From NCBI RefSeq assembly GCF_014844095.1, contig NZ_CP062163.1, positions 3,753,501-3,817,500 of the forward strand: DNA of 64,000 bases, read 5' to 3'. The notes beneath the pieces were generated by a model. That model saw only the letters and a program-made list of their open reading frames with translations, was not told the origin of the DNA and searched no databases. Of the stretch, positions 14,654 through 31,258 are shown in pieces; within the stretch, counting starts at the first letter, position 1, and each line of letters begins with the position of its first letter. Source of the stretch: Brevibacillus sp. JNUCC-41 (GTDB taxonomy: Bacteria; Bacillota; Bacilli; Bacillales; DSM-1321). The position numbers and the translations under genes were made by a program.

Positions 14654-14740
14654 TCGTTAGGACATCATTTATCACAATAATGGTAGGTATCTCTATAAGG
14701 GAGTACTATACTTGGCATTGTTATGTGCTCTCAAACTAAA

Positions 14741-14770
14741 AGGCGAAGACTAGAAATCTTCTCCTTTTTT
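14741..14770 (-). terminator. Terminator after XerS-like relic 1
   Basis: The arms AGGCGAAGA (14741-14749) and TCTTCTCCT (14757-14765) pair with minor mismatch around CTAGAAA, and T/A tracts flank the stem. The same structure follows the second XerS relic at 31230-31258. Confidence 0.5.
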
Positions 14771-16145: not shown

Positions 16146-17144
16146 TTAGCACCCACAGGATTTTCTAATCATTAGTGATGCAGGAATTTGAATGTGTCTG
16201 GAGTAAGATGGGTTATTTATTTTATTTAAGAGTACATCAAAGGCGGTTTGACCAACTGTTTCTGAAGACATACTAATATTAGTAATCGGAGGGCAAGTGA
16301 TATTTGCTGCTGGAAAATCTCCAAAACCTATTAGAGCTATATCCTCAGGGCATTTAAGTGAAAGGGCCGTTAATCCTTGTATAGCACCAACTGTCATTAA
16401 GTCGTTTAATATAAATAATGAGGTAATTTGTTTTTCACGATTAATTAAATATTTAGTTGCTTTCAGCCCGCCTTCCACCGTAGCATTTCCAAGTTCTAGG
16501 TAACTTTCATTATAAGTAAAATTGTAATCCTTTAAGGCAGCCTTATAGCCTTCAATTCTTCCAGTAGTAGAAGTGACATCTGCTTTGGCATAGATTAACC
16601 CTATATGGTGATGACCGTGTTGTAATAAATGAACAGTTGCATCATACCCAGCTTGAAAATCATCCATCGTCACTTTTGGGATTAGCGGCAAATTTGGATC
16701 ATATCGAAGCACTTGAATAATTGGAATATTTTGTTCTATGTACTTTTTTAAATATTGTGAGTCCATCTTAGAAGGAGTGATAATAATCCCATCTACCATA
16801 TGGGAGCTGAGAAGTTTAATTGTTTCCTTCTCGTATTCTTGATCTTCAATTGTGTTGATAAAAAGCATCTGATAGCCTAATTCCCGAGCTCGTTTTCCTA
16901 CTCCATTCACAATTCCTGATACATGAGAGTCCGGAAATGATGAAACAACTAAACCAGCCGTTTTAGTTTTTAGATTTCTTAAGTTCTTCGCTCTGATATC
17001 AGGGACATAATTATATTTATCAATTATTCCTTTGATTAGTTTAGTCTTATCTTCCGAGATATTCTTTGTCCCATTCATGACATGGGACACTGTAGCGGTA
17101 GAAACCCCAGCTTCTCTTGCAATATCTTTTATTGTTATTTTCAT
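16146..17144 (-). CDS. LacI/GalR-family transcriptional regulator
   Basis: 332 residues with the LacI N-terminal helix-turn-helix (TIKDIAREAGVSTATVSHVM), hinge, and a periplasmic-binding-protein-like ligand domain (GLVVSSFPDSHVSGIVNGVG). It is divergent from the island starting with the MHS transporter. Two copies of GTTAATCGTTT lie in the divergent region, one just before its own start (17171) and one at 17339, suggesting autoregulation and control of the transporter operon. The effector is unknown; LacI regulators normally sense sugars or sugar derivatives. Confidence 0.9.
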   Translation of the reverse strand: MKITIKDIAREAGVSTATVSHVMNGTKNISEDKTKLIKGIIDKYNYVPDIRAKNLRNLKTKTAGLVVSSFPDSHVSGIVNGVGKRARELGYQMLFINTIEDQEYEKETIKLLSSHMVDGIIITPSKMDSQYLKKYIEQNIPIIQVLRYDPNLPLIPKVTMDDFQAGYDATVHLLQHGHHHIGLIYAKADVTSTTGRIEGYKAALKDYNFTYNESYLELGNATVEGGLKATKYLINREKQITSLFILNDLMTVGAIQGLTALSLKCPEDIALIGFGDFPAANITCPPITNISMSSETVGQTAFDVLLNKINNPSYSRHIQIPASLMIRKSCGC

Positions 17145-17170
17145 TTAATCTCCCTACCATCTTCCATAAA

Positions 17171-17184
17171 GTTAATCGTTTTTC
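17171..17184. promoter_or_regulatory. Candidate LacI-type operator near the lacI-like gene start
   Basis: GTTAATCGTTTTTC keeps the central CG with flanking AA/TT pattern of LacI-family sites and shares GTTAATCGTTT with the second site at 17339. It lies 27 bp before the regulator's start codon. Confidence 0.45.
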
Positions 17185-17338
17185 TCTGTAGACAATTATT
17201 AATTAGTAATTTACCATATATTTTTTGGGAAAACAACGAAACGATCAATAAAATACAGTTATTCGTATAAAATTTTCAATAAAATGAAATATTTGTATTG
17301 AATTATCCGAATATTTTTGTTATTTTTTTATAAATAAG

Positions 17339-17352
17339 GTTAATCGTTTAAC
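17339..17352. promoter_or_regulatory. Candidate LacI-type operator, second copy
   Basis: GTTAATCGTTTAAC is an almost perfect palindrome centred on CG. It lies in the 570-bp divergent region between the LacI gene and the MHS transporter operon. Confidence 0.5.
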
Positions 17353-17563
17353 TTTATCAACAAATTTAGGGATTTATTTTCGATTTGAGGAGCTTTTATT
17401 AAATATATAGAAAAATAATTGAAATCAATGTTTATTTGTTAAATTTGAAAGAAGGTTTCTTAGTTTATCATTTTGAGTTGAAGTATTGTGATTCTTCAGA
17501 AAAATAGTGTGAATATTTAGAAAATATATTGTTTCGAAAAAGGAAGTGTGGTTTAATATAATT

Positions 17564-17586
17564 ATTGGTTGGGTCACCCAACCAAT
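17564..17586. promoter_or_regulatory. Island operator site 1 (GntR-type palindrome)
   Basis: ATTGGTTGGGT (17564-17574), one C, then ACCCAACCAAT (17576-17586) form a perfect 23-bp palindrome. Related sites lie at 22670, 26224, 27496 and 27646, in front of the other units of the island. The size and symmetry fit a FadR/GntR dimer; the GntR gene at 25474-26160 is the obvious candidate. Confidence 0.75.
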
Positions 17587-17657
17587 CAAGGGGGTGGAAG
17601 CTGATTTTGATAATAATATTTAATGATTGAAATAGTGATTGGTTTTCTTTTCGCAAT

Positions 17658-17671
17658 TGTAAGCGCTTTAA
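17658..17671. promoter_or_regulatory. cre site (carbon catabolite control)
   Basis: TGTAAGCGCTTTAA fits the CcpA-binding cre consensus with one mismatch. It lies 45 bp before the MHS transporter start, so the island is probably repressed by preferred carbon sources. Confidence 0.65.
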
Positions 17672-17715
17672 ATGGTAGGGGGAGTAAACATCAATAGTAT
17701 AAGGAGAATGATGTG

Positions 17716-19047
17716 ATGAGTAGTAATGAAACCTCGATGAAGAGGGTAGCAGGTGCTAGCTTTGTAGGTGCATTGATGGAATGGTACGACTTCTTCCTTT
17801 ATGGGACTGCTTCGGCAATTGTATTAAACAAGTTATTTTTCCCGGATTTAGATCCAACGGTTGGTACTATAGCCGCTTTTGCATCATTTGCTATTGGTTT
17901 CTTAGCAAGGCCTCTTGGAGGACTAGTGTTTGGGCACTTTGGCGATAAAATAGGAAGGAAATCTATTCTTGTTATTACCCTTTTAATGATGGGCGGATCT
18001 ACATTTGCAATAGGTTTATTACCAACGTATGATTCAATCGGAGTATGGGCGCCAATCTTGTTAGTAGCCCTGCGTCTATTTCAAGGGTTTGCGCTCGGTG
18101 GAGAGTATGGAGGAGCTTCCTTGTTAATGATAGAACATGCCCCAAGAAATCAAAGAGGATTTTGGGGAGCATTATTACAATCCGCTACTCCTCTAGGTTT
18201 GTTGTTAGCTTCCGGTACTTTTACATTAGTAACTTTATTACCTGAAGCACAATTTCTAGCTTGGGGATGGCGGATTCCATTCGTCATCAGCATTATACTT
18301 TTGGGTGTAGGTACATTTATACGATTTAGCGTAAAGGAGACTCCTGCTTTTCAAGAACTAAAAGAGACTGGCAAGGAAGTAAAACTGCCAATAGTAGAAT
18401 TGTTTAGGGCATATCCGAAAAGTATTTTAATTGCATTTGGGGCAAGGATAGGTGAAACCGTAAGTTTTAATTTGTTCAACGTTTTTGTCATCTCTTATGT
18501 TAACACAAAATTAGGACTTTCAAGCAATGTAGCATTAACAGGAGTATTCGTAGCATCAGCAGTTGCAGTAGTCGTTTCACCCTTATTTGGTGCTTTATCT
18601 GATCGAATAGGTAGGAAACCAGTATATCTATTTGGGACATCCTTTTTAGTACTCTTCGCTTTCCCATTTTTCTCCTTAGTCAACTCAGGGGTTGCGGTTA
18701 TCATTTATCTAGCTATTACGCTAGGTTACGTTCTTGGTACAACAGCTTTATTTAGTATCCAATCGGTCTTTTTTACAGAAATGTTTGGTACCCATGTACG
18801 TTATAGTGGCTTGTCATTCGTATATCAAGTATCAGGTATTATTGGAGGGTTTACACCTCTAATTGCTTCATCATTATTGCTATGGGAAGGCGGAGTTTTA
18901 TACATTTCACTTTTCTTAGTATGTGCTTCGCTTATTTCTTTGATAGCTACTCTCTTTTCAAAAGAAACATTTAAAAAAGATATTTCAGAAATTGAAAAAC
19001 TAAAAAGTGAAGTTCATATAGAAGATGAAATTAAAATTTTAAAGTGA
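17716..19047 (+). CDS. MFS importer, metabolite:H+ symporter (MHS) family
   Basis: 443 residues with about 12 membrane segments and MHS signatures: EWYDFFLYG near the start, GDKIGRKSIL in the loop after the second segment, and LRLFQGFALGGEYGG in the fourth segment region. Relatives (ShiA, KgtP, ProP) import organic acids and zwitterions with protons. AAGGAG precedes the ATG at 17716; a GTG at 17713 is also possible. It is the first gene after the LacI-type site, the palindromic operator and the cre site, and leads the operon with the aldehyde and 3-hydroxyisobutyrate-type dehydrogenases. The context suggests uptake of a C3 sulfonate. Confidence 0.85.
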   Translation: MSSNETSMKRVAGASFVGALMEWYDFFLYGTASAIVLNKLFFPDLDPTVGTIAAFASFAIGFLARPLGGLVFGHFGDKIGRKSILVITLLMMGGSTFAIGLLPTYDSIGVWAPILLVALRLFQGFALGGEYGGASLLMIEHAPRNQRGFWGALLQSATPLGLLLASGTFTLVTLLPEAQFLAWGWRIPFVISIILLGVGTFIRFSVKETPAFQELKETGKEVKLPIVELFRAYPKSILIAFGARIGETVSFNLFNVFVISYVNTKLGLSSNVALTGVFVASAVAVVVSPLFGALSDRIGRKPVYLFGTSFLVLFAFPFFSLVNSGVAVIIYLAITLGYVLGTTALFSIQSVFFTEMFGTHVRYSGLSFVYQVSGIIGGFTPLIASSLLLWEGGVLYISLFLVCASLISLIATLFSKETFKKDISEIEKLKSEVHIEDEIKILK

Positions 19048-19098
19048 AAAATTATTTGAATATTCTACCATTAACTTTATTTAAAGGGGCGGAAAATC

Positions 19099-20544
19099 TT
19101 GAACAATAGTATAAAAACAAAAGCAAAAAAACTTTTTATCAATGGCGAGTGGACTGAAGCTTTTTCTGGTAAAACGTTTGATGTTTTGAATCCTGCTACT
19201 AAAAAAGTTGTAGCAACAGTTTTTTACGGTTCTACAGAAGAAGCTAGGCTGGCAATTAAATCTGCGAATGACGCTTTTCCAAAATGGGCTGCATTAACTG
19301 CTAAAGAACGTGGGGACTATTTAACGAAGTTATATGAATTAATGCTTAAAGAAAAAGAAAGTTTAGCTGAATTGATCACACTTGAAATGGGCAAGCCGAT
19401 TAAAGAAGCTAGGGGAGAAATTGAGTTAGCGGCAGAATACTTATTATGGAACGCGGAAGAAGGAAAACGAATATACGGTGAAAGCATACCTGCAACAAGT
19501 CCGTCTAAACGCTTGCAGGTATTAAAACAACCCATTGGACCAGTAGGAGCAATCACGCCATGGAATTTTCCTGTTTCGATGTTAACAAGAAAACTGGGGC
19601 CAGCATTGGCTGCAGGTTGTACATTTGTTGTAAAGCCAGCCAGTAAAACTCCTAGCAGTGCTATTCGTCTTTTTGAACTGATTGAACAAGTTAAATTTCC
19701 GAAAGGCGTACTCAATTTAGTCATTGGAAGTTCTAAACATATCGGAAATGAAATGATGGAAAATCCAGCTATCAAAAAAATTACATTTACTGGATCAACC
19801 GCTGTTGGGAAAAAGCTTATTGAAGGATCAGCTCAGCAAGTTAAGAAGGTATCAATGGAATTGGGAGGACATGCTCCATTTATTGTTTTTGAAGATGCAA
19901 ACCTTGAGGAAGCAGCTGAAGGAGTTATCATAAGTAAATATAGAAATAGCGGTCAGACTTGTATCTGTTTAAACCGTCTCTATGTGCAAAAATCTGTAAA
20001 AAGTCAATTTGAAGTTCTGTTAACTGAAAAGGTGAAAAGTTTAAAAATGGGAAATGGTATCGAGGAATCAACCGAAGTAGGACCACTTGTAGATGAAGAA
20101 GCTTTAAAAAGGGTAGAATTTCAAGTGGAAGATGCCTTGGAAAAAGGGGCGATCATCCTAACTGGGGGAAAGCGGAAGGCTGTTAATGAATTATTTTTTG
20201 AACCAACACTCTTATCAAATGCCACTTCAGATATGGAGATATCTTATGAAGAAACTTTCGGTCCCGTTGCACCAATTTATACTTTTGAGTCAGAAGAAGA
20301 AGTGATCGAGGCGGCAAATAAAACTGATTATGGACTCGCAGCATATTTTTACACAAATGATTTAGGAAGAAGCATCAGGGTAGCTGAAAAATTAGAGTAT
20401 GGAATAGTTGGCGTGAATGATGCCACACCAACTGTGGTTCAAGCACCCTTTGGAGGAGTAAAACAAAGTGGCCTCGGAAGAGAAGGTGGACATCAGGGAG
20501 TAGAGGAATATCTTGAGACTAAATTTATTTCTATTAAAATCTAA
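19099..20544 (+). CDS. Aldehyde dehydrogenase, GabD-like; candidate sulfolactaldehyde dehydrogenase
   Basis: 481 residues. Active-site elements are the general base Glu in MELGGHAP and the nucleophile Cys in [21 protein letters not shown] and FTGSTAVGKK bind cofactor. The GQTCxCxNR pattern is the succinate-semialdehyde dehydrogenase type, where the Arg holds an anionic end of the aldehyde; a sulfonate could take that place. GabD-like enzymes oxidise 3-sulfolactaldehyde to sulfolactate in known sulfoquinovose pathways. A TTG start with AAAGGGG upstream is likely. It lies between the importer and a YihU-like enzyme. Plain succinate semialdehyde dehydrogenase remains possible. Confidence 0.8.
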   Translation: MNNSIKTKAKKLFINGEWTEAFSGKTFDVLNPATKKVVATVFYGSTEEARLAIKSANDAFPKWAALTAKERGDYLTKLYELMLKEKESLAELITLEMGKPIKEARGEIELAAEYLLWNAEEGKRIYGESIPATSPSKRLQVLKQPIGPVGAITPWNFPVSMLTRKLGPALAAGCTFVVKPASKTPSSAIRLFELIEQVKFPKGVLNLVIGSSKHIGNEMMENPAIKKITFTGSTAVGKKLIEGSAQQVKKVSMELGGHAPFIVFEDANLEEAAEGVIISKYRNSGQTCICLNRLYVQKSVKSQFEVLLTEKVKSLKMGNGIEESTEVGPLVDEEALKRVEFQVEDALEKGAIILTGGKRKAVNELFFEPTLLSNATSDMEISYEETFGPVAPIYTFESEEEVIEAANKTDYGLAAYFYTNDLGRSIRVAEKLEYGIVGVNDATPTVVQAPFGGVKQSGLGREGGHQGVEEYLETKFISIKI

Positions 20545-20558
20545 GGGGGAAAAATGAT

Positions 20559-21437
20559 ATGAAAATCGGGTTTATTGGACTAGGCAAAATGGGGAGTGGA
20601 CTTGCAAAGAATCTTATTCGTTCAGGTTTCGAAGTAATGTTATTCGATATTAACCATGAAGCTATAAAAGCAGTAACGAAATTAGGGGGCAGAAGTGCTT
20701 CTTCTCCGATTGAAATAGCTTCAAATGCAGATGTAGTTTTTACAAGTTTGCCTTTGCCAAAACATTTACTTCAATTGTTAATTGAAAACGATAAACTTCT
20801 CCAAGAGATGAAACCAGGGTCTGTACTGATTGACGTTAGTACCATTGACCCTAATACGGCAAGAGTGATTGCGGATGAGGCAGAAAAAAATAGTGTGGAA
20901 TTTTTAGCCTGTCCTCTAGGCAAGGGGCCTGCTCAAGCGGAAGAAGGTACAGAACCCATTTTTGCTGGGGGCAAAGAAGTTGTTTTTAACTGTTACAAAG
21001 AAATGTTAGAACAAATTGGGCGACCTGTTTCATACTTGGGAGATGTTGAACAATCAACGGCTTTTAAACTGATCAGTAATATGGTAGGAATGGCAAATTT
21101 ATCAGTAATGAGTGAAGGGTTTCAATTGGCTATCCAAGCAGGAATCGATCCATCACAATTCAAAGAGTTATTGCATGATACTGGGGCAAATTCAGCCCAA
21201 TTAAATTTGAGAGGGCCGTTAATTTTGGAAAATGATTATACGCCAATGTTTTCTGTAGATTTGGCCGAAAAAGATGTACGACTTGGTGTAGAGATGGCAG
21301 AAACCATAAATTATACTGCCCAGTTTAGTAAATTGGCCTTGGATCATCTTCAAGAAGCACAAAATATGGATTTAGGAAACAAAGATGCTGCAGCCGTATA
21401 TCAGACATTTCAAAAAAGAGTAGAGTCAAAGTCGTAA
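20559..21437 (+). CDS. Beta-hydroxyacid dehydrogenase, 3-HIBDH family (YihU-like)
   Basis: 292 residues: N-terminal Rossmann motif GFIGLGKMGSGLA, a helical C-terminal domain with the catalytic Lys in AFKLISNM. The substrate loop reads CPLGKGPAQAEEG where ordinary 3-hydroxyisobutyrate dehydrogenases have APVSGG; the related E. coli sulfolactaldehyde reductase YihU also departs from SGG at this place. In this context it may oxidise 2,3-dihydroxypropane-1-sulfonate to sulfolactaldehyde (reverse of YihU), handing the product to the aldehyde dehydrogenase encoded 14 bp upstream. Tartronate-semialdehyde reductase is the main alternative. Confidence 0.8.
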   Translation: MKIGFIGLGKMGSGLAKNLIRSGFEVMLFDINHEAIKAVTKLGGRSASSPIEIASNADVVFTSLPLPKHLLQLLIENDKLLQEMKPGSVLIDVSTIDPNTARVIADEAEKNSVEFLACPLGKGPAQAEEGTEPIFAGGKEVVFNCYKEMLEQIGRPVSYLGDVEQSTAFKLISNMVGMANLSVMSEGFQLAIQAGIDPSQFKELLHDTGANSAQLNLRGPLILENDYTPMFSVDLAEKDVRLGVEMAETINYTAQFSKLALDHLQEAQNMDLGNKDAAAVYQTFQKRVESKS

Positions 21438-21615
21438 GGGGACGAAAAGGGGGCGAGGTGAGTGAAGCTGTCGTTTTTATGAAAAGCCATATTATAAGGT
21501 TGTTTGTTTCTATCTTAATATTTATAAGAGTTATTTGTAGTAATACGATCTATAAATTAAGAGATATTTAAGTTATGTACAAGCCTTTGGAACACATATA
21601 AGAGAGGGGTTAGTT

Positions 21616-22566
21616 ATGAAAATATTAATTACAGAACTGATTTGGGAAGAAGGAATAAAGAAACTGGCGGACAAAGGTTTTGAGATTGAATATGATGAAA
21701 CCTTATGGAGTAAGAGGGAACAATTACTTGAGATTATTCCTCGTTTCGATGCTGTGATTGTAAGAAACCAAACAAATGTAGATCACGATTTATTGACTTC
21801 GGGAATTAATTTAAAAGCAGTAGGTAGACTTGGTGTGGGCCTGGATAATATAGATTTAAAAATAGCTAAAGAAAAAAACATAAAAGTTGTTTATGCTAAA
21901 CATGCCAATGCAACATCTGTGGCTGAATACGTTATCACTGCAATGTTAAACGTTCAGAGACCTCTTCATTTAGCTGAATTAGATGTAAGAGAAGGAAATT
22001 GGAACAGAAAGAAGTATACTTGCGGGGAATTGTATCAGAAAACAATTGGTTTAGTTGGCTTGGGTGAGATTTCTCATCGGGTGTCAAAAAGGGCTAAAGC
22101 TTTTGGAATGAATGTGATAGGCTATGATCCGTTTGTGACCGAATATGACCATATTTTATCTGAGACAGGTGTTGAAATCAAATCATTGCTTAATGACGTA
22201 TTGTCTAAATCAGATTTTGTTTCACTTCATGTTCCATTGACACCTCAAACTTATTCTTTGATTGGACAAAATGAGCTGAAATTAATGAAGCCAACCTCTT
22301 ATATTATTAATACTGCCCGAGGAGGAATCATAGATGAAAATGCTCTTGCAGAAGCATTAAATCACAACATGATATCCGGTGCTTTTTTGGATGTTCTTGA
22401 AGTAGAACCTCTTGATCTTGGACACCCACTACTTGAGTGTAAAAATGCTTTTATCACACCACACATCGCTGGCCTAACTAATGAGTCTCAAATCCGTACT
22501 TCTTCATTAGTGGCTAAAGAAATAATTAAAGTACTGAGTGGAAAAGTGTCCTTATGCGTTGTTTAA
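21616..22566 (+). CDS. D-2-hydroxyacid dehydrogenase (PGDH-like; candidate SlcC)
   Basis: 316 residues with the D-isomer 2-hydroxyacid dehydrogenase layout: GRLGVGLDNID, NAD-binding GLVGLGEIS, catalytic Arg in NTARGGIIDE, Glu in the VLEVEP segment and His in ITPHIAGLTNES. The length is that of short PGDH-like enzymes lacking the ACT domain. SlcC, a known (S)-sulfolactate dehydrogenase, belongs to this group and works with ComC and SuyAB to invert and cleave sulfolactate. SuyA- and SuyB-like genes follow immediately, which favours that role; a generic hydroxyacid is the alternative. Ribosome site GAGAGGGG before the ATG. Confidence 0.8.
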   Translation: MKILITELIWEEGIKKLADKGFEIEYDETLWSKREQLLEIIPRFDAVIVRNQTNVDHDLLTSGINLKAVGRLGVGLDNIDLKIAKEKNIKVVYAKHANATSVAEYVITAMLNVQRPLHLAELDVREGNWNRKKYTCGELYQKTIGLVGLGEISHRVSKRAKAFGMNVIGYDPFVTEYDHILSETGVEIKSLLNDVLSKSDFVSLHVPLTPQTYSLIGQNELKLMKPTSYIINTARGGIIDENALAEALNHNMISGAFLDVLEVEPLDLGHPLLECKNAFITPHIAGLTNESQIRTSSLVAKEIIKVLSGKVSLCVV

Positions 22567-22669
22567 TCATGAATTAAATTTTAAAAGTGAAAAGATAAAG
22601 ATAAAATTCAGAAAATTTAAAAATGTTATTGACTATACCATTTATTGGTGGTTAAATAAGTATATAAAT

Positions 22670-22692
22670 ATTGGTTGGGTCACCATACCAAT
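22670..22692. promoter_or_regulatory. Island operator site 2, before the SuyA-like gene
   Basis: ATTGGTTGGGT-C-ACCATACCAAT has the same left arm as site 1 and two changes in the right arm. It lies 18 bp before the SuyA-like ATG, overlapping or just before the ribosome site, so it could act as a roadblock or mark an internal promoter. Confidence 0.65.
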
Positions 22693-22709
22693 TCAAAGGA
22701 GGAAAATTA

Positions 22710-23054
22710 ATGAGCAAGAATAGTCATACGGAAACACCCGTGAAAAATAATGCTGAAGCTCAACCATTGTTATCCACTCACAAATTTCTGATTCACCACC
22801 AAGGTGATCATGTAGGTGTGGCTACAACTCCGATTCAAAAAGGGGAGAAAGTAGTTGGTATCTATATGGATGATAATACGGAGGTGGAAGTGGAAGCACT
22901 AGATGATATCCCCCTAGGGCACAAAATCTCTCTTGTTAAGCTAAATGCAGCAGAACCTGTACTGAAATATGGTGTTCAAATTGGGCTAACAACGAAATCA
23001 TGTATGGTGGGCGATTACGTCCATACTCACAATATTAAAACGGCGAGGTGGTAA
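22710..23054 (+). CDS. suyA: UxaA N-terminal (SAF) domain protein; candidate SuyA
   Basis: 114 residues forming a single SAF domain: [38 protein letters not shown] and a [14 protein letters not shown] end. This small subunit is separate from the large one, as in (2R)-sulfolactate sulfo-lyase SuyAB and some altronate dehydratases; the NIKTARW ending resembles SuyA. The ATG at 22710 follows AAAGGAGG. Its stop overlaps the ribosome site of the large-subunit gene, so the two are translationally coupled. The product with SuyB would split sulfolactate into pyruvate and sulfite. Confidence 0.75.
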
Positions 23055-23056
23055 AG

Positions 23057-24214
23057 ATGGAACAACAAATTTATGGATATCGAAGAGAAAACGGTAAAGT
23101 AGGCGTTCGTAATCATGTAATTCTTCTACCTGTAGACGACATTTCGAATGCAGCATGTGAAGCAGTAGCAAATCAAATTCAAGGAACTTTAGCTCTTCCA
23201 CATGCTTATGGAAGATTGCAGTATGGTCCGGATTTGGACCTGCATTTTAGAACAATGATTGGAATCGGATCTAATCCAAATGTTGCAGCTGTTATAGTAA
23301 TTGGTATCGAAGAAAATTGGTCCAAGAAAATCGCAGATGGTATTGCTGAAACAGGAAAGCCTGTATCATACTTTTCTATAGAAGGTAATGGAGATTTAGA
23401 GACCATTCGTAAAGCTTCTTGGAAAGCCAAAGAGTATTCACAGTGGGCTTCTGAGCTTCAAAGAGTACCAGTTGAATTAAAAGATTTGACTATCAGTATC
23501 AAATGCGGTGAGTCAGATACCACAACAGGATTAGGATCTTGTCCAACCGTTTCACAAGCAGTTGATCGCCTTGTGGATGCCGGAGCTACAGTATTCTTTG
23601 GTGAAACATCGGAGCTAACTGGAGGAGAGCACATCATTTATAATCGGATGGCCACTCCTGAATTGAAAGAAAAGTTCACATCCATTTATGAGGATTACGT
23701 AGGGGAAATTGAATCAAAAGGTGTAGATCTTCTAGGCTCACAGCCAACACAAGGAAATATCGCTGGCGGCCTATCCACAATTGAGGAAAAAGCTCTTGGC
23801 AATATTGCTAAAACGGGAACAAAGCAAATAATAGGAGTACTTGAACCAGCTGAAAGCCCTGAGAATGGAAATGGATTATACTTCATGGATACTTCATCTG
23901 CAGCAGCTGAATGTATTACTCTAATGGCCGCTGGCGGAGCTGTCCTTCATCTTTTCCCAACCGGGCAGGGAAATATTATTGGTAATCCAGTTGAACCAGT
24001 AGTGAAAATCACAGCAAATCCAATTACGGCAGGTACCATGAGTGAACATATTGATGTAGATGTACAAGGTTTACTATCTCGCCAAATTTCACTTGAAGAA
24101 GCGGGTGACCAATTGATGGAAATGATTTGCAGAACTGTGAATGGACGACTGACAAGTGCAGAAGCACTTGGACATAAAGAGTTTGTAATGACAAAACTAT
24201 ATCGAAGTGCATAA
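23057..24214 (+). CDS. suyB: UxaA-family lyase large subunit; candidate sulfolactate sulfo-lyase SuyB
   Basis: 385 residues of the altronate/galactarate dehydratase superfamily: [68 protein letters not shown] and [16 protein letters not shown], with conserved Cys residues probably holding iron. [16 protein letters not shown] is the kind of segment I associate with SuyB rather than UxaA or GarD. The reaction would be (R)-sulfolactate to pyruvate plus sulfite in the cytosol. The ATG at 23057 is chosen over a GTG at 23048 because GAGGTGG precedes it. A terminator follows at 24225. Confidence 0.75.
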
Positions 24215-24224
24215 CTTAAAGCAG

Positions 24225-24257
24225 TCTCCCTACACATTTCTAGTAGGGAGATTCTTT
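24225..24257 (+). terminator. Terminator after the lyase genes
   Basis: TCTCCCTAC (24225-24233) and GTAGGGAGA (24243-24251) form a perfect 9-bp stem followed by TTCTTTTTA, a standard intrinsic terminator that separates SuyAB-like genes from the ComC-like gene. Confidence 0.8.
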
Positions 24258-24303
24258 TTAGAAGATTGAGATAAATAAAAGTCGATTTCAGAGGAGGATC
24301 TTA

Positions 24304-25374
24304 ATGAAAAGGTATAATGAATCAGCGTTAAAGAGTTTTTGTGAAGAACTATTGGGGAAAATAGGAATGTCAACATTGGATTCTGGTGTAGTGGCAGATT
24401 CGTTAGTTACAGCGAATATGGAAGGGGTAGACAGCCATGGCATTAGTAGACTTCCAATTTATTCTAAAAGATTTTTAGATAACAGAATAAATATAACACC
24501 TAATATTCACCTTCAGGAAAAAGGCCCTTCTGTATTGGTAGTTGATGGAGACAATGGTCTCGGGCACGTAATCAGTTACCATTCTATTTTAAAAGGTATT
24601 GAAATGGCTAAAAGTACAGGTACAGCTGCCATCGCTATTAAAAATAGTAATCATTTTGGTACAGCTTCATATTTTTGTAAGTTAGCGGCTGAGCAAAACC
24701 TAGTATGTATCGGATTTACTAATTCACCTCCAGGCATTGCTCCTTGGGGAGGAAAAAAAGCATTTTTTGGTACAAACCCTATCGCTTTTGGATTTCCAAC
24801 AGATGATGATAAGCCGGTAATCATTGATTTATCTACAAGTATAGTAGCAAGGGGAAAAATTATCTTAGCTGCCAATCAAGGAAAGGAAATACCTGAAGGC
24901 TGGGCAATAGATAGTGAAGGTCAGCCGACTACTAGCGCAGAAGCTGCTCTTGATGGGTCGGTATTACCTCTGGGCGGAGCTAAAGGAGCGGCTTTAGCCT
25001 TAGCTGTAGAGATTTTGACAGGTGTACTATCAGGGGCTGCCTTTGGGCCAAAAGTAAAAAATTTATATGATGAAAAAGAGATTGAACCTGCAAATGTCGG
25101 GCACTTTTTTATTTTATTGGACATTGAAAAATTTATTGACCTTGAGGTATTTTTTCTATCTATTAATATGCTATTAAAAGAAATGAAAGCGGTTCCTAAA
25201 GCGTTGGGAAGTAGTGAGATACGATATCCTGGGGAACGAAGGAGACAGGAGGCTCTAAATAGTTTAAAAGAAGGAATTCAATTGCCGGACAGTGTTTTAG
25301 GAGAACTGGTTAGATTGGGTGAACAGTTTGACATCCCTTTTCCACACCCCATGAAAACAGACCTTCTGACTTAA
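24304..25374 (+). CDS. Malate/L-lactate dehydrogenase family; candidate sulfolactate dehydrogenase ComC
   Basis: 356 residues of the LDH2/MDG2 family: GVDSHGISRLP, NSNHFGTASYF with the catalytic His, GTNPIAFGFP, and a GGAKGAALALAVEILTG segment. These are NAD-dependent 2-hydroxyacid dehydrogenases unrelated to the classical lactate dehydrogenases. ComC, the (R)-sulfolactate dehydrogenase, is a member. Paired with the SlcC-like enzyme, it could convert (S)- to (R)-sulfolactate through sulfopyruvate. AGAGGAGG precedes the ATG. It has its own transcription start region between two terminators. Other hydroxyacids cannot be excluded. Confidence 0.75.
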   Translation: MKRYNESALKSFCEELLGKIGMSTLDSGVVADSLVTANMEGVDSHGISRLPIYSKRFLDNRINITPNIHLQEKGPSVLVVDGDNGLGHVISYHSILKGIEMAKSTGTAAIAIKNSNHFGTASYFCKLAAEQNLVCIGFTNSPPGIAPWGGKKAFFGTNPIAFGFPTDDDKPVIIDLSTSIVARGKIILAANQGKEIPEGWAIDSEGQPTTSAEAALDGSVLPLGGAKGAALALAVEILTGVLSGAAFGPKVKNLYDEKEIEPANVGHFFILLDIEKFIDLEVFFLSINMLLKEMKAVPKALGSSEIRYPGERRRQEALNSLKEGIQLPDSVLGELVRLGEQFDIPFPHPMKTDLLT

Positions 25375-25382
25375 TAATATAA

Positions 25383-25467
25383 AGGCTGTTCATTTAAAAC
25401 CTTTACCATGCTTTTAATGACGTACATGTCATAATCCAATGATCAAGTGTCTTAAAATGAACAGCCT
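25383..25467. terminator. Long-loop inverted repeat between convergent genes
   Basis: AGGCTGTTCATTT (25383-25395) pairs with AAATGAACAGCCT (25455-25467) across a loop of about 59 bases. It fills the gap between the rightward ComC-like gene and the leftward GntR gene and probably ends both transcripts. Confidence 0.6.
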
Positions 25468-25473
25468 ATTAAA

Positions 25474-26160
25474 TTAATTGTTCTCGGTAATGGACTTCTC
25501 AACACTTTCTAAATGCTCTTTCATGTACCTTTGTGCCAATACGATATCCTTTTGCTTAATGGCTTCAAGGATTTTGCTATGTTCCTGTACGGATTGTATA
25601 GCACGTCCTGGGATCTGAATCGTTTTCATTCGAGATTCAGACAATAAGTCGATGAGAAAATGCATAATCCTAATAAGTACCATATTTTTAGAGTTATTGG
25701 CCAGAGTTAAGTGGAATTTATGGTCCAATTCTGCTAGCCTTTCAAAGTTTGTGTTAGTTTTTGCGACTTCTTTTGCTTCATTAATAATTCGATCTAATTG
25801 ATCAACTTGTTCTAAATCAGAGTTTTCAATGGACCACTTTACTGTGGATTCTTCTAAAACTTTTCGAACTGAAAAAAAATCTTTTACCTGATCGGAAGAT
25901 ACAAAAAAAGCCTCTGTCATTTTTTGTATTTGATATTCTGGTGAAGAAATAAAAACACCTGTGCCATGTTTGACAGTCAAGTACCCATAAGCTTCAAGAA
26001 TTTTATAAGCTTCTCTAACCGTGTTTCTACTTACTTGAAGTTCTAAGGCCATATCTCTTTCACCCAGGATTTTTTCACCTTCTTTATATACCCCATCTTG
26101 GATTCTTTTTTTTATATTATCTGCAACCTGTTCCGAGACCCCTTTTCTATTGACAATCAT
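25474..26160 (-). CDS. GntR-family regulator, FadR/FCD subfamily
   Basis: 228 residues: N-terminal GntR winged helix (GERDMALELQVSRNTVREAY) and an all-helical FCD ligand domain containing the metal-binding type pattern ELDHKFHLTLA and VQEHSKILEAI. FCD regulators usually bind a carboxylated or phosphorylated intermediate through a metal ion. It lies in the centre of the island, and five related palindromic sites sit before the island's transcription units, including its own, so it is the probable local repressor or activator. The inducer is likely a pathway acid such as sulfolactate. Confidence 0.88.
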   Translation of the reverse strand: MIVNRKGVSEQVADNIKKRIQDGVYKEGEKILGERDMALELQVSRNTVREAYKILEAYGYLTVKHGTGVFISSPEYQIQKMTEAFFVSSDQVKDFFSVRKVLEESTVKWSIENSDLEQVDQLDRIINEAKEVAKTNTNFERLAELDHKFHLTLANNSKNMVLIRIMHFLIDLLSESRMKTIQIPGRAIQSVQEHSKILEAIKQKDIVLAQRYMKEHLESVEKSITENN

Positions 26161-26223
26161 TGCATATCTCTCCTATCTTTTTTGATACAGACAGTATTTG
26201 CCTATATAAAGGTGGTTAAAGAG

Positions 26224-26243
26224 ATTCCATGACCCAACCTTTA
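26224..26243. promoter_or_regulatory. Island operator site 3, before the GntR gene
   Basis: ATTCCATGACCCAACCTTTA contains the TGACCCAACC half found in the other sites, with a degenerate second half. It lies about 64 bp before the GntR start on the minus strand and points to autoregulation. The rest of 26161-26400 shows no gene. Confidence 0.5.
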
Positions 26244-26400
26244 TTTTATTTAAACATGCCCTTATTTAGTAAGCAATCCATATTTCGGCTCGCATTATGG
26301 GAAACGCATTAATTTATCGTTGTGATATAAAAAATGCTCGCAGAAATCTCTTTGTTAAAGAATCATCTGCAAGCTGAATTGTTCCCAACTCATACTCATA

Positions 26401-27459
26401 TTAAATTTTGGTAAGAAAAAATCCTAAAATGATTAAGGCAAGAGAGCCAATTGAGCCTGTTAGTAAAACATTGCGATTCAACTTTTTAAATTCTTTGAAG
26501 TTGACACTTAAACCAAGACCAGCCATAGCCATGGATAATAGATAAATGCTTAAAGTAATTAAAATTTTTGTAATGGACTCTGAAAAAAACCCCCATGTAT
26601 TCAAAATACACATTGCTAAAAAGCCAAAAATGAACCAAGGTATGGGTAATTCCTTCAAGCCTCTTTTCTTAATATTTACAGGGTGACTTTTTTTGAAAAA
26701 AATACCGAAAAGAATCGCTACAGGAATTAGAAGGGTTACTCGCCCTAGCTTTACAAGAATCGCTGTATCACTGCTTGCATCTCCACCTGGAGCTGCAGCG
26801 GCAATTACATGAGCTAACTCATGAAGAGTTGAGCCAGCTAATACACCATATTTATAACTAGTTAAATCAAGGACAGGATATATAAAAGTGTATACAATCG
26901 TTACTACTGTTCCTAGAATTGCGATAAAGGCAACAGATATGGCCGTCGTTTCTTTCTTAGCTCCTATTAATGGTGCGATAGCGACAATGGCTGCTGCTCC
27001 ACATACTGCAGTTCCGACTGCGATTAGGGCTGATAAATGCCGGTCAATAGAAAGCAGTTTTCCTAAATACAACATAAAACCCAGTGTAAAAGAAATTACT
27101 ATTACATCAATCAAAACTATGGAAAAGCCTGCTGAAATAATCTGTTGTAGATCTAATCTTAAACCCATTAAAATAATTCCGGCACGCAGTAATATTTTAC
27201 TGCTAAATGTTATCCCAGTTGTTGAACCTTGTGGAACATCTATTGTTGCTTTCCATGCCATACCCAAAATGATCGATATAATCATGCTCCCCATTACCGA
27301 AAAAAAAGGAATCTTTATAACAAACCCAGCGATAAAGGCAATTGCAGCTGTTAATAAAAGTCCCTTTATAAAACCTCTATATTTTAAGTAAGGTTTGGGG
27401 TTAGGACTAGGAGGCGGTATGGACTTTTCATTTACTTTTCCCCTTGCTAAGCTACTCAA
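26401..27459 (-). CDS. YeiH-family putative sulfate/sulfite exporter
   Basis: 352 residues, around ten membrane segments, of the conserved YeiH/UPF0324 family: GSMIISIILGMAW, GIILMGLRLDLQQI, AVGTAVCGAAAIVAIAP and GVLAGSTLHELAHVIAAA. The family is annotated as putative sulfate exporters and members recur next to sulfonate catabolic genes, where sulfite or sulfate must leave the cell. A TTG start at 27459 is chosen because AAAGGAGGAG lies directly before it; the longer ATG frame begins upstream of this site. It is transcribed from the operator region shared with the TRAP operon. Confidence 0.8.
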   Translation of the reverse strand: MSSLARGKVNEKSIPPPSPNPKPYLKYRGFIKGLLLTAAIAFIAGFVIKIPFFSVMGSMIISIILGMAWKATIDVPQGSTTGITFSSKILLRAGIILMGLRLDLQQIISAGFSIVLIDVIVISFTLGFMLYLGKLLSIDRHLSALIAVGTAVCGAAAIVAIAPLIGAKKETTAISVAFIAILGTVVTIVYTFIYPVLDLTSYKYGVLAGSTLHELAHVIAAAAPGGDASSDTAILVKLGRVTLLIPVAILFGIFFKKSHPVNIKKRGLKELPIPWFIFGFLAMCILNTWGFFSESITKILITLSIYLLSMAMAGLGLSVNFKEFKKLNRNVLLTGSIGSLALIILGFFLTKI

Positions 27460-27495
27460 ATTTTCTCCTCCTTTAAATTGGAAATTTAGCAACCA

Positions 27496-27518
27496 TGTGG
27501 CTCAGTGACCCAACCAAT
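27496..27518. promoter_or_regulatory. Island operator site 4, before the exporter gene
   Basis: The right arm ACCCAACCAAT (27508-27518) is identical to site 1, the left arm is degenerate (6 of 11 match). It lies about 40 bp upstream of the TTG start of the exporter gene. Confidence 0.55.
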
Positions 27519-27645
27519 AATATAATTAAATCATTTTCTGCAATCTTTATCAACGAATTTTTTGAAAAATTTATTATTTTTTGAAAATTCAATAAATGGT
27601 TAAAAAGTTATTGATTTATTTGGAAATTATCAATAAAATGAGTTT

Positions 27646-27668
27646 AATGGTTGGGTGACCGAACAACT
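27646..27668. promoter_or_regulatory. Island operator site 5, before the TRAP transporter operon
   Basis: AATGGTTGGGT-G-ACCGAACAACT keeps 10 of 11 left-arm and 8 of 11 right-arm positions of site 1. It lies roughly 95 bp before the DctP start. The stretch 27519-27645 between sites 4 and 5 is very AT-rich and must carry the two divergent promoters. Confidence 0.6.
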
Positions 27669-27760
27669 TGATTGGAATGATATTTTAGTTTTACATGTAC
27701 GGAATTAGGCAAGTCAAGCTTATTAATGAAAGGGCTTACAAAATGTTAGGAGGATGTTAC

Positions 27761-28753
27761 ATGAAGAGATATGCTTCCATTCTTATTGTTTTAATTTTCA
27801 TTCTTGGTGGTTGCTCCAATGCTGTAACAAGTAAGGAGAAAGGTGCCGAATATGTGTTAAGGTTAGGACATTTACAGACTGAGGTTCACCCTTATCACAA
27901 AGGTGCCTTAAAGTTCAAAGAGGAAGTAGAAAAAAGATCTGAAGGGAGAATAAAAGTTGACATTTTTCCTAGTAGTCAATTAGGAAATGGAAGGGATCAG
28001 ATCGAAGGAGCTCAAATAGGGTCCATTCATTTCCACATTGGTTCAGTGGCTCCTGTTACAAACTTTGCCCCTAAGTTTAATCTACTTAATTTACCTTATT
28101 TATTTGAAAGTCGTGAACATGCTTTCAGAGTTTTAGATGGGGAGATTGGAAAAGAAATTGCAGCCGATTTGGAAAATAGAGGTTTAATCAATTTAGGTTA
28201 TATGGAAAACGGTTGGAGACATATGACAAACAATAAAAAGCCAATAAAAACAAGTAACGATGCCTCCAATTTAAAACTAAGAGTACAGGAATCCCCACCA
28301 TATCTTTCTTTTATTAAGGCTCTCGACTCTAATCCAGTACCTGTACCATTTGGGGAACTTTATACTGCATTAGAACAAAAGGTTGTGGACGGGCAGGAGA
28401 ATCCACTCGCACAAATTTATTTGAATAAATTGAATGAAGTTCAAAAATATCTAACATTAACTTCTCATAATTATGATGCAGCTGTTTTTATCATGAGTAA
28501 AACCACGTTTGATACCTTACCCCTGGATTTACAAGAAATCGTAAAAGAATCTTCACAAGAGGCTATCCAATATGAGAGAAAAGTAGCGATAAAGGATGAA
28601 AAAAAGATATTGGGAGAGTTAAGAAAAAGCGGAATTCAAATTGAAGAAAACCCTGATTTAAAGTCTTTTAGGGAGGCAGTTAAGCCTGTTTATAAGGAAT
28701 TTGAGTCTTCTTTAGGCAAAGACTTATATTCGAAAGTTGAAAGGCTTAAATAA
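27761..28753 (+). CDS. TRAP transporter substrate-binding lipoprotein (DctP type)
   Basis: 330 residues with a signal peptide ending in the lipobox ILGGC (Cys18), then a DctP fold: RLGHLQTEVHPYHKGALKF, FPSSQLGNGRDQIEGAQIG, and LRVQESPPYLSFIKALDSNP carrying the Arg that binds the substrate's acid group. The ATG at 27761 follows TTAGGAGG. It captures an organic acid outside the membrane and passes it to the DctQM pair encoded downstream. Tripartite importers of this type (SlcHFG) are known for sulfolactate, which fits this island, although the ligand cannot be read from sequence. Confidence 0.88.
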   Translation: MKRYASILIVLIFILGGCSNAVTSKEKGAEYVLRLGHLQTEVHPYHKGALKFKEEVEKRSEGRIKVDIFPSSQLGNGRDQIEGAQIGSIHFHIGSVAPVTNFAPKFNLLNLPYLFESREHAFRVLDGEIGKEIAADLENRGLINLGYMENGWRHMTNNKKPIKTSNDASNLKLRVQESPPYLSFIKALDSNPVPVPFGELYTALEQKVVDGQENPLAQIYLNKLNEVQKYLTLTSHNYDAAVFIMSKTTFDTLPLDLQEIVKESSQEAIQYERKVAIKDEKKILGELRKSGIQIEENPDLKSFREAVKPVYKEFESSLGKDLYSKVERLK

Positions 28754-28771
28754 AGTTAAGGGGGATTTAGA

Positions 28772-29344
28772 TTGAAAGTACTAATGTGGAATTTGAGTGA
28801 GAAAATTAATCAAACAAGTCGTTTTTTTCTAATTTTTTTCTTTGTCATTGCCTTTATATCGACAGTTTATCAAGTGATTTCACGTTTTATTTTACAGAGT
28901 ATGATGATGAAAAAAGCACTTCCTATGGTCGATTTTTCTGTATTTAATTTAACCTGGATCGAAGAGCTCATTCGATATTTGTTTGTTTGGATTGTCTTTT
29001 TAGGAATTGGGATAGTTTACAAGAACAAAGGGCACGCACAAGTGGAAATATTACACCATTATTTACCGGAAGTATTCAAAAATAAGTTATTGGCGTTTAT
29101 TGAAATAGTAAATTCGGTCCTGTTTCTATTTTTAATTGTATATGGATGGAGTATATTGAAGTTTACTAGTCAACAAATTTCACCGTCGTTAGGAATAAAT
29201 ATGACTTTTATTTACGGAGCTGTCCTAATCTGTTCCTTGACCTGTCTGATTCACTCTTCGGTTCATTTACTTGATTTGGTATCGATGAAAAATGTAATAA
29301 AAGAAGATGTTTATGAAGAAACCCATAAAAATACCAATATATGA
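28772..29344 (+). CDS. TRAP transporter small membrane subunit (DctQ type)
   Basis: 190 residues with four hydrophobic segments and the DctQ pattern LTWIEELIRYLFVWIVFLG in the second segment and KGHAQVEIL after it. It links the binding protein to the large DctM subunit in a Na+-driven importer. A TTG start at 28772 with AAGGGGG upstream gives the expected length; an ATG six codons later family-wise is less likely. It lies 18 bp after dctP and 18 bp before dctM. Confidence 0.85.
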   Translation: MKVLMWNLSEKINQTSRFFLIFFFVIAFISTVYQVISRFILQSMMMKKALPMVDFSVFNLTWIEELIRYLFVWIVFLGIGIVYKNKGHAQVEILHHYLPEVFKNKLLAFIEIVNSVLFLFLIVYGWSILKFTSQQISPSLGINMTFIYGAVLICSLTCLIHSSVHLLDLVSMKNVIKEDVYEETHKNTNI

Positions 29345-29362
29345 AATTGAGGTGAAGTATCA

Positions 29363-30643
29363 ATGACAGTAGCTATTATCGTCCTTTTTGTATTATTCTT
29401 CTTAATGATCATCGGCGTTCCCATTGCCATTTCCCTTATTTTGGCTTCAGTTGCCGGGTTTATGTCCAGCATCTATTATATTCCATTAGAAGTAATTCCT
29501 CAAAGACTGATAACTTCAGTAGATTCATTTCCACTACTAGCCATTCCTTTTTTCATGCTCACAGGTGAATTCATGATGTCAGGTAGCATGGGGCGTAGAA
29601 TAGCAGGCTTTGCATTTGCCACCGTTGGTTGGGTAAGAGCTGGATTGGCGCAAGTTTCTACGCTAACCAGTATGTTTTTTGCCGGTATTTCAGGTTCAGG
29701 GGCAGCTGACACAGCGGCTGTTGGGAAAATGATGATTCCAATGATGGAGGAGAAAGGATATGATAAAGGTTTTGCAGCTGCTACCGTTGCGAGTGCAGGG
29801 ACGATTGCGGTAGTTATTCCACCCTCCATACCAATGATTGTTTATGGAGTAACTGCGGGAGTCTCTATTGGGGATTTATTTACTGCAGGAATAATCCCTG
29901 GGATATTAATCGGAATGTCTATAATGATGTTAAACTATTGGCTCACAAAAAAGAATGGGTATTCTGAAGAGGTAGGTTCATTTGAATTTGCCTCCTTCAA
30001 AAAAACCTTTTTTGAAGGAATATTGGCTTTAGTTTTACCTCTAATTATTATTTTTGGGATACGTGGAGGGATTTTCACCCCGACTGAAGCTGCTGCTATA
30101 GCTGCAGCGTATGCTTTTATAATAAATAAATTTGTCTACAAAGATATGGACTGGAAAGACATTCCGATTGCATTTCTTAATGCAGGGAAAATGACAGCGA
30201 TGGTTGTCTTCATCATAGCAGGTGCCAACTTATTTGGTTGGCTTTTAACAGCAGAGCAAATCCCACAACTTCTGACCCAGCTTGTTACAAGCTTTTCTGA
30301 AAACAAATATATTTTACTAATTATGTTTAATATTATTTTCTTTATCGCTGGATGCTTTTTGAACGCATCTGCCGCTATTACTATTCTAACGCCTTTACTT
30401 CTACCTATCGCAGTGGGGGTTGGAATCGATCCAATATTTTTTGGTTTGATTATGGTTGTCAATCTTTCAATAGGTCTTATAACTCCCCCAGTAGGGTTAG
30501 ATCTTTTTATTGTAAAAGGGATAGCCAATGTATCATATGATAATTTAGTTCAATCAATTGTGCCTTTCATTATTGTAATGGTCTGTGATCTATTAATTAT
30601 TACTTATTTTCCAGCACTCTCAATGTTCTTAACTACCTTATAA
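29363..30643 (+). CDS. TRAP transporter large permease subunit (DctM type)
   Basis: 426 residues, about 12 membrane segments. Typical DctM segments are GVPIAISLILASVAGF, PFFMLTGEFMMSG, FFAGISGSGAADTAAVG, VIPPSIPMIVYG and the PPVGLDLFIVKG motif near the end. It forms the sodium-coupled transport channel of the tripartite importer. The ATG follows TTGAGGTGAAG. It is the last gene of the island. With the MHS protein it gives the island two unrelated importers. Confidence 0.9.
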   Translation: MTVAIIVLFVLFFLMIIGVPIAISLILASVAGFMSSIYYIPLEVIPQRLITSVDSFPLLAIPFFMLTGEFMMSGSMGRRIAGFAFATVGWVRAGLAQVSTLTSMFFAGISGSGAADTAAVGKMMIPMMEEKGYDKGFAAATVASAGTIAVVIPPSIPMIVYGVTAGVSIGDLFTAGIIPGILIGMSIMMLNYWLTKKNGYSEEVGSFEFASFKKTFFEGILALVLPLIIIFGIRGGIFTPTEAAAIAAAYAFIINKFVYKDMDWKDIPIAFLNAGKMTAMVVFIIAGANLFGWLLTAEQIPQLLTQLVTSFSENKYILLIMFNIIFFIAGCFLNASAAITILTPLLLPIAVGVGIDPIFFGLIMVVNLSIGLITPPVGLDLFIVKGIANVSYDNLVQSIVPFIIVMVCDLLIITYFPALSMFLTTL

Positions 30644-31229: not shown

Positions 31230-31258
31230 AAGAGAAGACTAGAAACATCTTCTCTTTT
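31230..31258 (-). terminator. Terminator after XerS-like relic 2
   Basis: AAGAGAAGA and TCTTCTCTT pair around CTAGAAACA, with A/T runs on the outside. This is the same structure that follows relic 1 at 14741. Confidence 0.55.

Follow-up and report, generated by a model that had tools for sequence, protein, structure and literature searches.

Introduction

The breakdown of sulfoquinovose yields 2,3-dihydroxypropane-1-sulfonate (DHPS) and sulfolactate as final products, and sulfolactate, formed by oxidation of sulfolactaldehyde, is the product described for those aerobic bacilli that have been studied (PMC12890257, PMC9594981). Here we describe an island of genes around suyAB, at positions 16146 to 30643 of a 64,000-nucleotide stretch (the window) of Brevibacillus sp. 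JNUCC-41 (NZ_CP062163.1, positions 3,753,501 to 3,817,500), which is likely to be one GntR-controlled sulfonate-catabolic regulon taking DHPS and sulfolactate to pyruvate and sulfite.

In Desulfovibrio sp. DF1, the heterologously produced enzymes DhpA, a beta-hydroxyacid dehydrogenase (beta-HAD, COG2084; locus 130620), and SlaB, similar to succinate-semialdehyde dehydrogenase (SSADH), oxidise DHPS, and SuyAB splits the sulfolactate (PMC6278857). The island is alike in this succession, DhpA having been compared by family only. However, dhpA/slaB and suyAB lie at distant locus numbers in DF1, where sulfite is respired to H2S (PMC6278857), whereas the island is one predicted regulon with SlcC/ComC, importers of the major facilitator superfamily (MFS) and the tripartite ATP-independent periplasmic (TRAP) type, and an exporter. 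In 2018, suyB was counted in 12 Firmicutes genomes, with Desulfotomaculum, Desulfitobacterium and Desulfosporosinus named (PMC6278857), and SuyAB is also part of the sulfo-TAL clusters found in Thermotogae and Chloroflexi (PMC9594981).

The inversion of sulfolactate by SlcC and ComC is attributed to Chromohalobacter, with homologues seen by proteomics in Paracoccus (PMC9594981, PMC12421959). The Chromohalobacter salexigens/Paracoccus module resembles the island in that two dehydrogenases are proposed to convert (S)- to (R)-sulfolactate ahead of SuyAB (PMC9594981, PMC12421959). The island SlcC and ComC are 37–43% and 34–39% identical, respectively, to the proteobacterial and actinobacterial proteins in our trees (the C. 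salexigens sequences lie outside them), and the island differs in having an FCD-GntR operator regulon and a TRAP importer. Cupriavidus pinatubonensis HN-2 (L024) likewise has a LacI (25% identical), an MFS protein (43%; plasmid matches elsewhere reach 49%) and SuyB (61%) in one cluster, but there DHPS is served by annotated hpsN and hpsO, beside suyAB and the MFS gene, and by HpsP (PMC9594981), none of which is in the island. Plasmids of Rhodococcus koreensis and R. jostii RHA1 (L026, L174) share GntR, SuyA, SuyB, SlcC, ComC and a beta-HAD of the LGK type defined below, and that of R. koreensis also an aldehyde dehydrogenase (ALDH) and an MFS protein. These plasmids differ in gene order, ALDH clade and MFS, with 31–48% identity outside SuyB, and R. 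koreensis is without an operator match.

The initial annotation of this DNA held that a self-contained Gram-positive version of the pathway would be noteworthy. The route, described mostly in Proteobacteria, is itself known from DF1, and suyAB genes had already been found in Firmicutes. Among the matches listed from the open-licence literature, some of it in excerpt, we found no paper on SuyAB in Bacillaceae and none on an operator or GntR regulator for sulfolactate.

Results

Gene content of the island

The initial annotation had proposed that all the families concerned stand together in one block, and the open reading frame (ORF) list and family scans bear this out: each gene is an open frame of the expected family, close to its expected position. 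The order is LacI (reverse), MFS, ALDH, beta-HAD, SlcC-like, SuyA, SuyB, ComC-like, GntR (reverse), YeiH-type (reverse) and DctP/Q/M, in a genome that is a single contig of 5.49 Mb. The features are as follows.

16146..17144, minus strand: LacI-family regulator, divergent from the MFS gene (ORF list, family scan)
17565..17585, plus strand: operator 1 (predicted), a perfect palindrome, before MFS-ALDH-betaHAD-SlcC
17658..17671, plus strand: TGTAAGCGCTTTAA, LacI/cre-like box lying after operator 1 and ahead of the MFS gene, putative function
17713..19047, plus strand: MFS metabolite:H+ symporter, candidate DHPS importer (family scan)
19099..20544, plus strand: GabD-like ALDH of the SSADH type, candidate sulfolactaldehyde dehydrogenase (family scan, tree)
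20559..21437, plus strand: LGK-type beta-HAD (3-hydroxyisobutyrate dehydrogenase/beta-HAD family), candidate DHPS dehydrogenase (family scan, tree)
21616..22566, plus strand: SlcC-like 2-hydroxyacid dehydrogenase of the phosphoglycerate dehydrogenase type, candidate (S)-sulfolactate dehydrogenase (family scan, tree)
22671..22691, plus strand: operator 2 (predicted), two mismatches to the palindrome, before suyA
22710..23054, plus strand: SuyA, small subunit of (R)-sulfolactate sulfo-lyase (ORF, locus comparison)
23048..24214, plus strand: SuyB, large subunit of (R)-sulfolactate sulfo-lyase (Pfam, tree, motif)
24304..25374, plus strand: ComC-like Ldh_2 dehydrogenase, candidate (R)-sulfolactate dehydrogenase (family scan, tree)
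25474..26160, minus strand: FCD-type GntR regulator, proposed reader of the operator (GntR helix-turn-helix and FCD domain, co-occurring palindrome)
26401..27459, minus strand: PF03601/YeiH membrane protein, candidate exporter of sulfite (start codon uncertain, with 27492 as a possible ORF start)
27497..27517, minus strand: operator 3 (predicted), four mismatches to the 21-base palindrome, before the exporter gene
27647..27667, plus strand: operator 4 (predicted), four mismatches to the 21-base palindrome, before the TRAP genes
27761..30643, plus strand: TRAP importer, DctP 27761–28753 (ORF can begin at 27695), DctQ 28772–29344, DctM 29363–30643

That the clustering is not chance is seen from related genomes and the Rhodococcus plasmids, where the core genes are again found together.

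Sequence places SuyAB with sulfolactate lyases rather than sugar-acid dehydratases

A maximum-likelihood tree of 48 rows was built from 26 SuyB loci, the window protein and 21 UxaA-type proteins including E. coli UxaA (E. coli GarD was left out). The 27 SuyB rows, among them those of Cupriavidus, Paracoccus and Rhodococcus, formed one clade with support of 100/100 on a long branch (1.74). All 27 contain the motif CGESD, whereas CGGSD is found in 21 of 21 UxaA-type rows, including E. coli UxaA and three paralogs from the window's own genome, whose UxaA-type paralogs are at 28–39% identity. Identity of SuyB to proteins on 13 plasmid records was 60–68%, the next match listed being at 38%. One of these records is C. 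pinatubonensis HN-2, with suyB adjoining the annotated hpsN and hpsO. On the Paracoccus versutus plasmid, a gene annotated as a putative sulfate exporter comes after suyAB, and a sulfite oxidase gene follows at a greater distance.

SuyA is a separate small subunit encoded directly upstream of SuyB. No Pfam family scored for it at E≤1e-3, and a SuyA-like frame was present in 80 of 80 SuyB loci (the best 80 of 585). The frame could begin at TTG 22671; since the predicted operator occupies 22671–22691 and overlaps this start, ATG 22710 is the likelier one.

Taken together, the tree and the motif uphold the annotation of these genes as SuyAB rather than UxaA, and the identity of the lyase as (R)-sulfolactate sulfo-lyase is well supported; at the level of sequence, a sugar-acid dehydratase was ruled out. 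Firm clustering with such dehydratases, which the initial annotation had named as refuting it, was not seen in this tree.

A predicted shared operator before the upstream arm, suyA, the exporter and the TRAP genes

A repeat search found the palindrome TTGGTTGGGTSACCCAACCAA, or a near copy of it, before the MFS-ALDH-dehydrogenase genes, suyA, the exporter gene and the TRAP genes, with one copy at each end of the exporter/TRAP intergenic region. The 19-base pattern TTGGTTGGGTNACCNNACC, with up to two mismatches, occurred at four places (six strand matches) in the 5.49 Mb, all of them in the island, and the reversed-pattern control gave no place genome-wide. With the 21-base palindrome at up to three mismatches, a genome scan returned operators 1 and 2 only.

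The operator is conserved together with the regulator. A copy with at most four mismatches stood no more than 200 bases before suyA in each of the 16 loci whose GntR reaches 55% identity, versus one of 80 other loci, and this lone exception (L124) is a short stretch without a GntR match. The 96 loci counted include the same locus of genome G216 twice (L129 and L161), and the genomes may overlap. In L027, L029 and L031–L033, sites with 0–5 mismatches stand before the TRAP genes and the exporter gene as well as before suyA and slcC; in the shorter stretches L123–L128 they precede suyA and mostly also slcC. The window has no operator-like site before slcC, and there the MFS-ALDH-betaHAD genes sit between operator 1 and slcC, the simplest reading being that the upstream arm was inserted behind a pre-existing operator. 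Because the operator precedes both this arm and suyA and is confined to the island, the DHPS/sulfolactaldehyde arm and the lyase are probably members of one regulon. Co-regulation of the island is a strong prediction, and from their co-occurrence we infer that the GntR protein binds the operator.

Related loci showed variation around the same site. In genome G077 (L028, 6135–8663), the place near suyA that TRAP genes take elsewhere is taken by a TctA/TctC tripartite tricarboxylate transporter. There suyA follows the same operator, and one importer may have replaced another inside a single regulon. Genome G216 (L161, 14275–17210) has an iron-sulfur protein (242 aa), a 124-aa frame and a fumarate-reductase-type flavoprotein (581 aa) divergent from suyA behind an operator-like site; in L030 (6345–9253), frames of 245, 124 and 581 aa, known by length alone, stand in the same relation to suyA.

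SlcC, ComC, exporter and importer are linked to SuyAB

Trees of SlcC and ComC were built from 27 SuyAB-linked loci and references. The SlcC-like protein fell in a set of seven rows of SuyAB-linked, Bacillaceae-type loci (support 96/90). E. coli SerA and GhrB both had branch lengths above 4, with GhrB in an open fork; the tree contains no characterised SlcC sequence. The ComC-like protein fell in an 11-row clade of Bacillaceae-type loci (99/94). Its best family was NCBIfam NF040650 (L-sulfolactate dehydrogenase), at 282 bits against a cut-off of 500 and so below it. Among the same best 80 of 585 SuyB loci, 40 had an SlcC match within the fetched stretch, 59 a ComC match and 40 both; only 51 of the 80 span at least 21 kb, so that absences near contig ends are weak. 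The neighbourhood thus suggests a functional link of both enzymes to SuyAB. For SlcC, whose nearest homologues are SuyAB-linked and whose linkage is conserved, the proposed SlcC type is plausible. For ComC, linkage is likewise conserved, the curated cut-off did not bear the name out, and the tree does not decide on the deeper relation to the proteobacterial ComC proteins. From the nearest SuyB, SlcC and ComC relatives in these trees, the host would be a member of the Bacillaceae.

The exporter candidate scored 272 bits with PF03601 (cut-off 24.5) and 179.6 bits with TIGR00698, below the cut-off of 232.6. It is 25% identical to the putative sulfate exporter annotated after suyAB in P. versutus, and this YeiH/PF03601 type would be SuyZ-like. 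A YeiH-type protein had been expected in the block; the Pfam score and the conserved linkage of the exporter to SuyAB agree with this. TRAP genes adjoin suyAB also in L027, L029 and L031–L033. The TRAP binding protein has many solved relatives, from which no ligand was deduced.

The upstream arm

The beta-HAD had been annotated as YihU. It is 26% identical to E. coli YihU and scored 143.7 bits with the NCBIfam sulfolactaldehyde-reductase model NF012005, below the cut-off of 348. In a tree of 14 rows it fell in a clade separate from YihU (100/99), together with proteins of genomes G050 and G216, two Rhodococcus plasmid proteins and PDB entry 9k2j. This clade shares LGK[G/T]PA where most other rows have PVSGG and YihU has VGRTSA, the arginine of which we take to bind the sulfonate. 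Thus the two enzymes are alike in family and in a basic residue (R in YihU, K in the island) in the loop where most rows have SGG, but differ in clade and in the opposite physiological direction of YihU. The name YihU has to be given up, orthology being ruled out by identity, tree and profile score. In Paracoccus sp. IB05, the beta-HAD near suyAB is a YihU-lineage enzyme (L086, 18707–19564); it is encoded some 7.5 kb from suyB and shares a clade with E. coli YihU (100/99).

The searches for SuyB and for the beta-HAD each drew 397 genomes of the order, the listed genomes agreeing, with E-value limits of our own choice (1e-150 and 1e-55, respectively) and at most six beta-HAD candidates scored per genome. 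At these limits the LGK-type beta-HAD was found in three of the 397, from three different families and all among the 14 genomes positive for SuyB; if the genomes are independent, this co-occurrence has P=3.5e-5, or 1e-3 without the window's own genome. An AlphaFold2 model from three sequences reached a mean pLDDT (predicted local distance difference test) of 85.9, and a single-sequence model 39.1. With the former, Foldseek ranked 9k2j first by E-value, 1vpd and others having higher TM-scores (template modelling scores); 9k2j is named in no paper of the open-licence literature searched. In G050 (L162, 4674–10920), the beta-HAD occurs in a second setting without the operator, where a divergent ALDH, an MFS protein, the beta-HAD, an enolase-superfamily protein and a GntR/UTRA regulator stand together. 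On balance, there is an even chance that the LGK beta-HADs are a Gram-positive DHPS dehydrogenase lineage, separate from both YihU and HpsN/O, that came under a GntR operator responding to sulfonates and lets one bacillus turn DHPS into pyruvate and sulfite.

The ALDH has the catalytic cysteine and both arginines at the positions of RlGabD Arg171 and Arg289 (mapped through human SSADH), the proposed sulfonate binders of the Rhizobium sulfolactaldehyde dehydrogenase (PMC10599462). The same set is found in SSADH-type paralogs of the genome and in E. coli GabD. Hence the family given by the initial annotation, GabD-like, stands, while nothing separates sulfolactaldehyde from succinate-semialdehyde dehydrogenases. 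As neither residues nor tree are diagnostic, the role of the ALDH is deduced from its place and shared control alone. The MFS proteins of the window, G216 and R. koreensis belong to different subfamilies, and no close LacI stands beside the other Bacillaceae suyAB loci fetched. The TGTAAGCGCTTTAA box, which we take to be LacI/cre-like, is the sole match in the window, against none expected in shuffles, and hints at double control with the divergent LacI gene.

Distribution in relatives

SuyB was found in 14 of the 397 genomes (the window's own included), in 10 of 135 genera, and no SuyB-type match was found in 35 congeners, where the best match was 40% identical. The full core (SlcC-SuyA-SuyB-ComC, GntR, exporter and TRAP) is present in Rossellomorea aquimaris (L029), Sporosarcina globispora DSM 4 (L031), Cytobacillus oceanisediminis 2691 (L032), Bacillus sp. 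EB106-08-02-XG196 (L033) and G050 (L027); within the order it is rare, not unique. In G216, an operator-like site (four mismatches) precedes ALDH-MFS-betaHAD, adjoining the exporter, SlcC, GntR, ComC and SuyAB. On both Rhodococcus plasmids, suyAB is accompanied by genes for SlcC, ComC and the LGK beta-HAD, and R. koreensis has ALDH-MFS-betaHAD-SlcC-ComC after suyAB, its MFS protein not being similar to that of the window at E≤1e-10. One contig (G255:C67) bears two SuyB genes (15612–16772 and 20523–21683), 89% and 92% identical to that of the window and about 5 kb apart.

Proposed pathway and alternative explanations

Substrates, flow directions, stereochemistry and transport, export included, are those that the named families suggest. 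Of the two importers, the MFS symporter would bring in DHPS and the TRAP system sulfolactate. The LGK-type beta-HAD would oxidise DHPS to sulfolactaldehyde, and the GabD-like enzyme would oxidise sulfolactaldehyde to sulfolactate. SlcC would oxidise (S)-sulfolactate to sulfopyruvate, which ComC would reduce to (R)-sulfolactate, and SuyAB would split the latter into pyruvate and sulfite, the YeiH-type protein exporting the sulfite. Of the route originally proposed, from DHPS through sulfolactaldehyde and sulfolactate to pyruvate and sulfite, the lyase, an SlcC-type dehydrogenase nearest SuyAB-linked homologues and a single predicted regulon have held, whereas YihU, a diagnostic ALDH and a placement of ComC with its proteobacterial namesakes were not borne out.

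It might be supposed that the sulfonate pathway comprises SlcC-SuyAB-ComC-GntR-exporter-TRAP only, and that the MFS-ALDH-betaHAD-LacI block is a chance neighbour serving 3-hydroxyisobutyrate or a sugar acid. Several observations are consistent with this and weigh against a single regulon. The MFS, ALDH, beta-HAD and LacI of the window have no match in the fetched stretches L027, L029 and L031–L033; among the other Bacillaceae suyAB loci fetched, G216 alone has an upstream block, rearranged and partly non-orthologous (ALDH 42%, MFS of another subfamily). The nearest row to the ALDH is a GabD-type paralog of its own genome (58%, support 94/95), and it does not group with the other SuyAB-linked ALDHs in a tree of 20 rows. 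The nearest solved relative of the beta-HAD, 9k2j, is named a 3-hydroxyisobutyrate dehydrogenase, and the LGK beta-HAD of G050 (57%) lies on a contig other than that of suyAB, with an enolase-superfamily gene and without the operator. A single regulon has further points against it: operators 3 and 4, which at four mismatches were missed by the three-mismatch scan, and the ComC tree, where the deep order among proteobacterial ComC, AllD and the paralog from the window's own genome is not settled. At a limit of seven mismatches, most loci had few operator hits above shuffles and some fell below; because these hits barely exceed shuffles, the case for the operator rests on the low-mismatch sites and their places. 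In its centre GT and AC are 1 nt apart, where 3 nt are typical of FadR-type sites (PMC4494728), and because of this difference its assignment to the GntR protein rests on co-occurrence. However, a perfect operator heads the upstream block at the place that the operator before slcC holds in related loci, while the slcC of the window has none before it; suyAB clusters of G216 and R. koreensis again contain these enzyme families; and the LGK beta-HAD was found only in SuyB genomes among the 397. We therefore consider a chance neighbour unlikely.

Somewhat less likely still is that the upstream arm acts on another sulfonated alcohol or aldehyde ending in sulfolactate, for example sulfolactaldehyde from sulfosugar breakdown, with the beta-HAD as a reductase or working on another C3–C4 sulfonate. 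Beta-HADs are reversible and E. coli YihU works as a reductase (PMC6278857), sulfofucose breakdown has been reported to lead on to SuyAB (PMC12421959), and the LGK clade is distinct from YihU. Against this, no known sulfosugar family turned up in the family scans of the island proteins. DUF4867, of the transaldolase route of sulfoquinovose breakdown, had no match in the genome, and since the controls gave none either, its absence is not established. A reading of the SuyAB-like proteins as dehydratases of the altronate or galactarate type, and of the island as one that degrades sugar acids, is highly improbable: Pfam places SuyB under D-galactarate/altronate dehydratase domains and public records call its homologues UxaA family hydrolase, but its clade stands apart with its own motif, and the genome has UxaA-type paralogs besides. 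A single regulon for DHPS and sulfolactate is thus the reading that we prefer.

Borders of the island and the rest of the genome

The island is bracketed by two directly oriented recombinase remnants.

14737..15250, minus strand: decayed Xer-type tyrosine recombinase remnant, left border (PF00589; 90.4% identity with the right remnant over 520 nt)
31232..32079, minus strand: decayed Xer-type tyrosine recombinase remnant, right border (repeat search, family scan)

An intact copy of the recombinase lies elsewhere in the genome (G000:C1, about 4097755–4098882). Together with the absence of SuyB from the congeners sampled, the remnants suggest that the island may have been acquired by transfer; no clear signature of an island was seen in the GC profile. 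An IS110-family transposase frame of 187 aa lies immediately to the left (window 12825–13388).

As to whether this genome also makes sulfolactate for its spores, ComA (PF02679) had no match in the genome, the control finding that of B. subtilis, and a ComB-type phosphatase (PF04029) is encoded at G000:C1:3263662-3264345. A PF00174 search of the genome for sulfite oxidation gave no intact gene but two adjacent Oxidored_molyb stretches (G000:C1:3678545-3678971), the second with internal stops, possibly a decayed sulfite-oxidase-family gene.

Discussion

If a single regulon is indeed what the island represents, Bacillaceae could carry the breakdown of C3-sulfonates through to pyruvate and sulfite. 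Other members could be recognised cheaply and specifically by the predicted operator, and the LGK dehydrogenase would allow the whole upstream arm to be tested with one protein.

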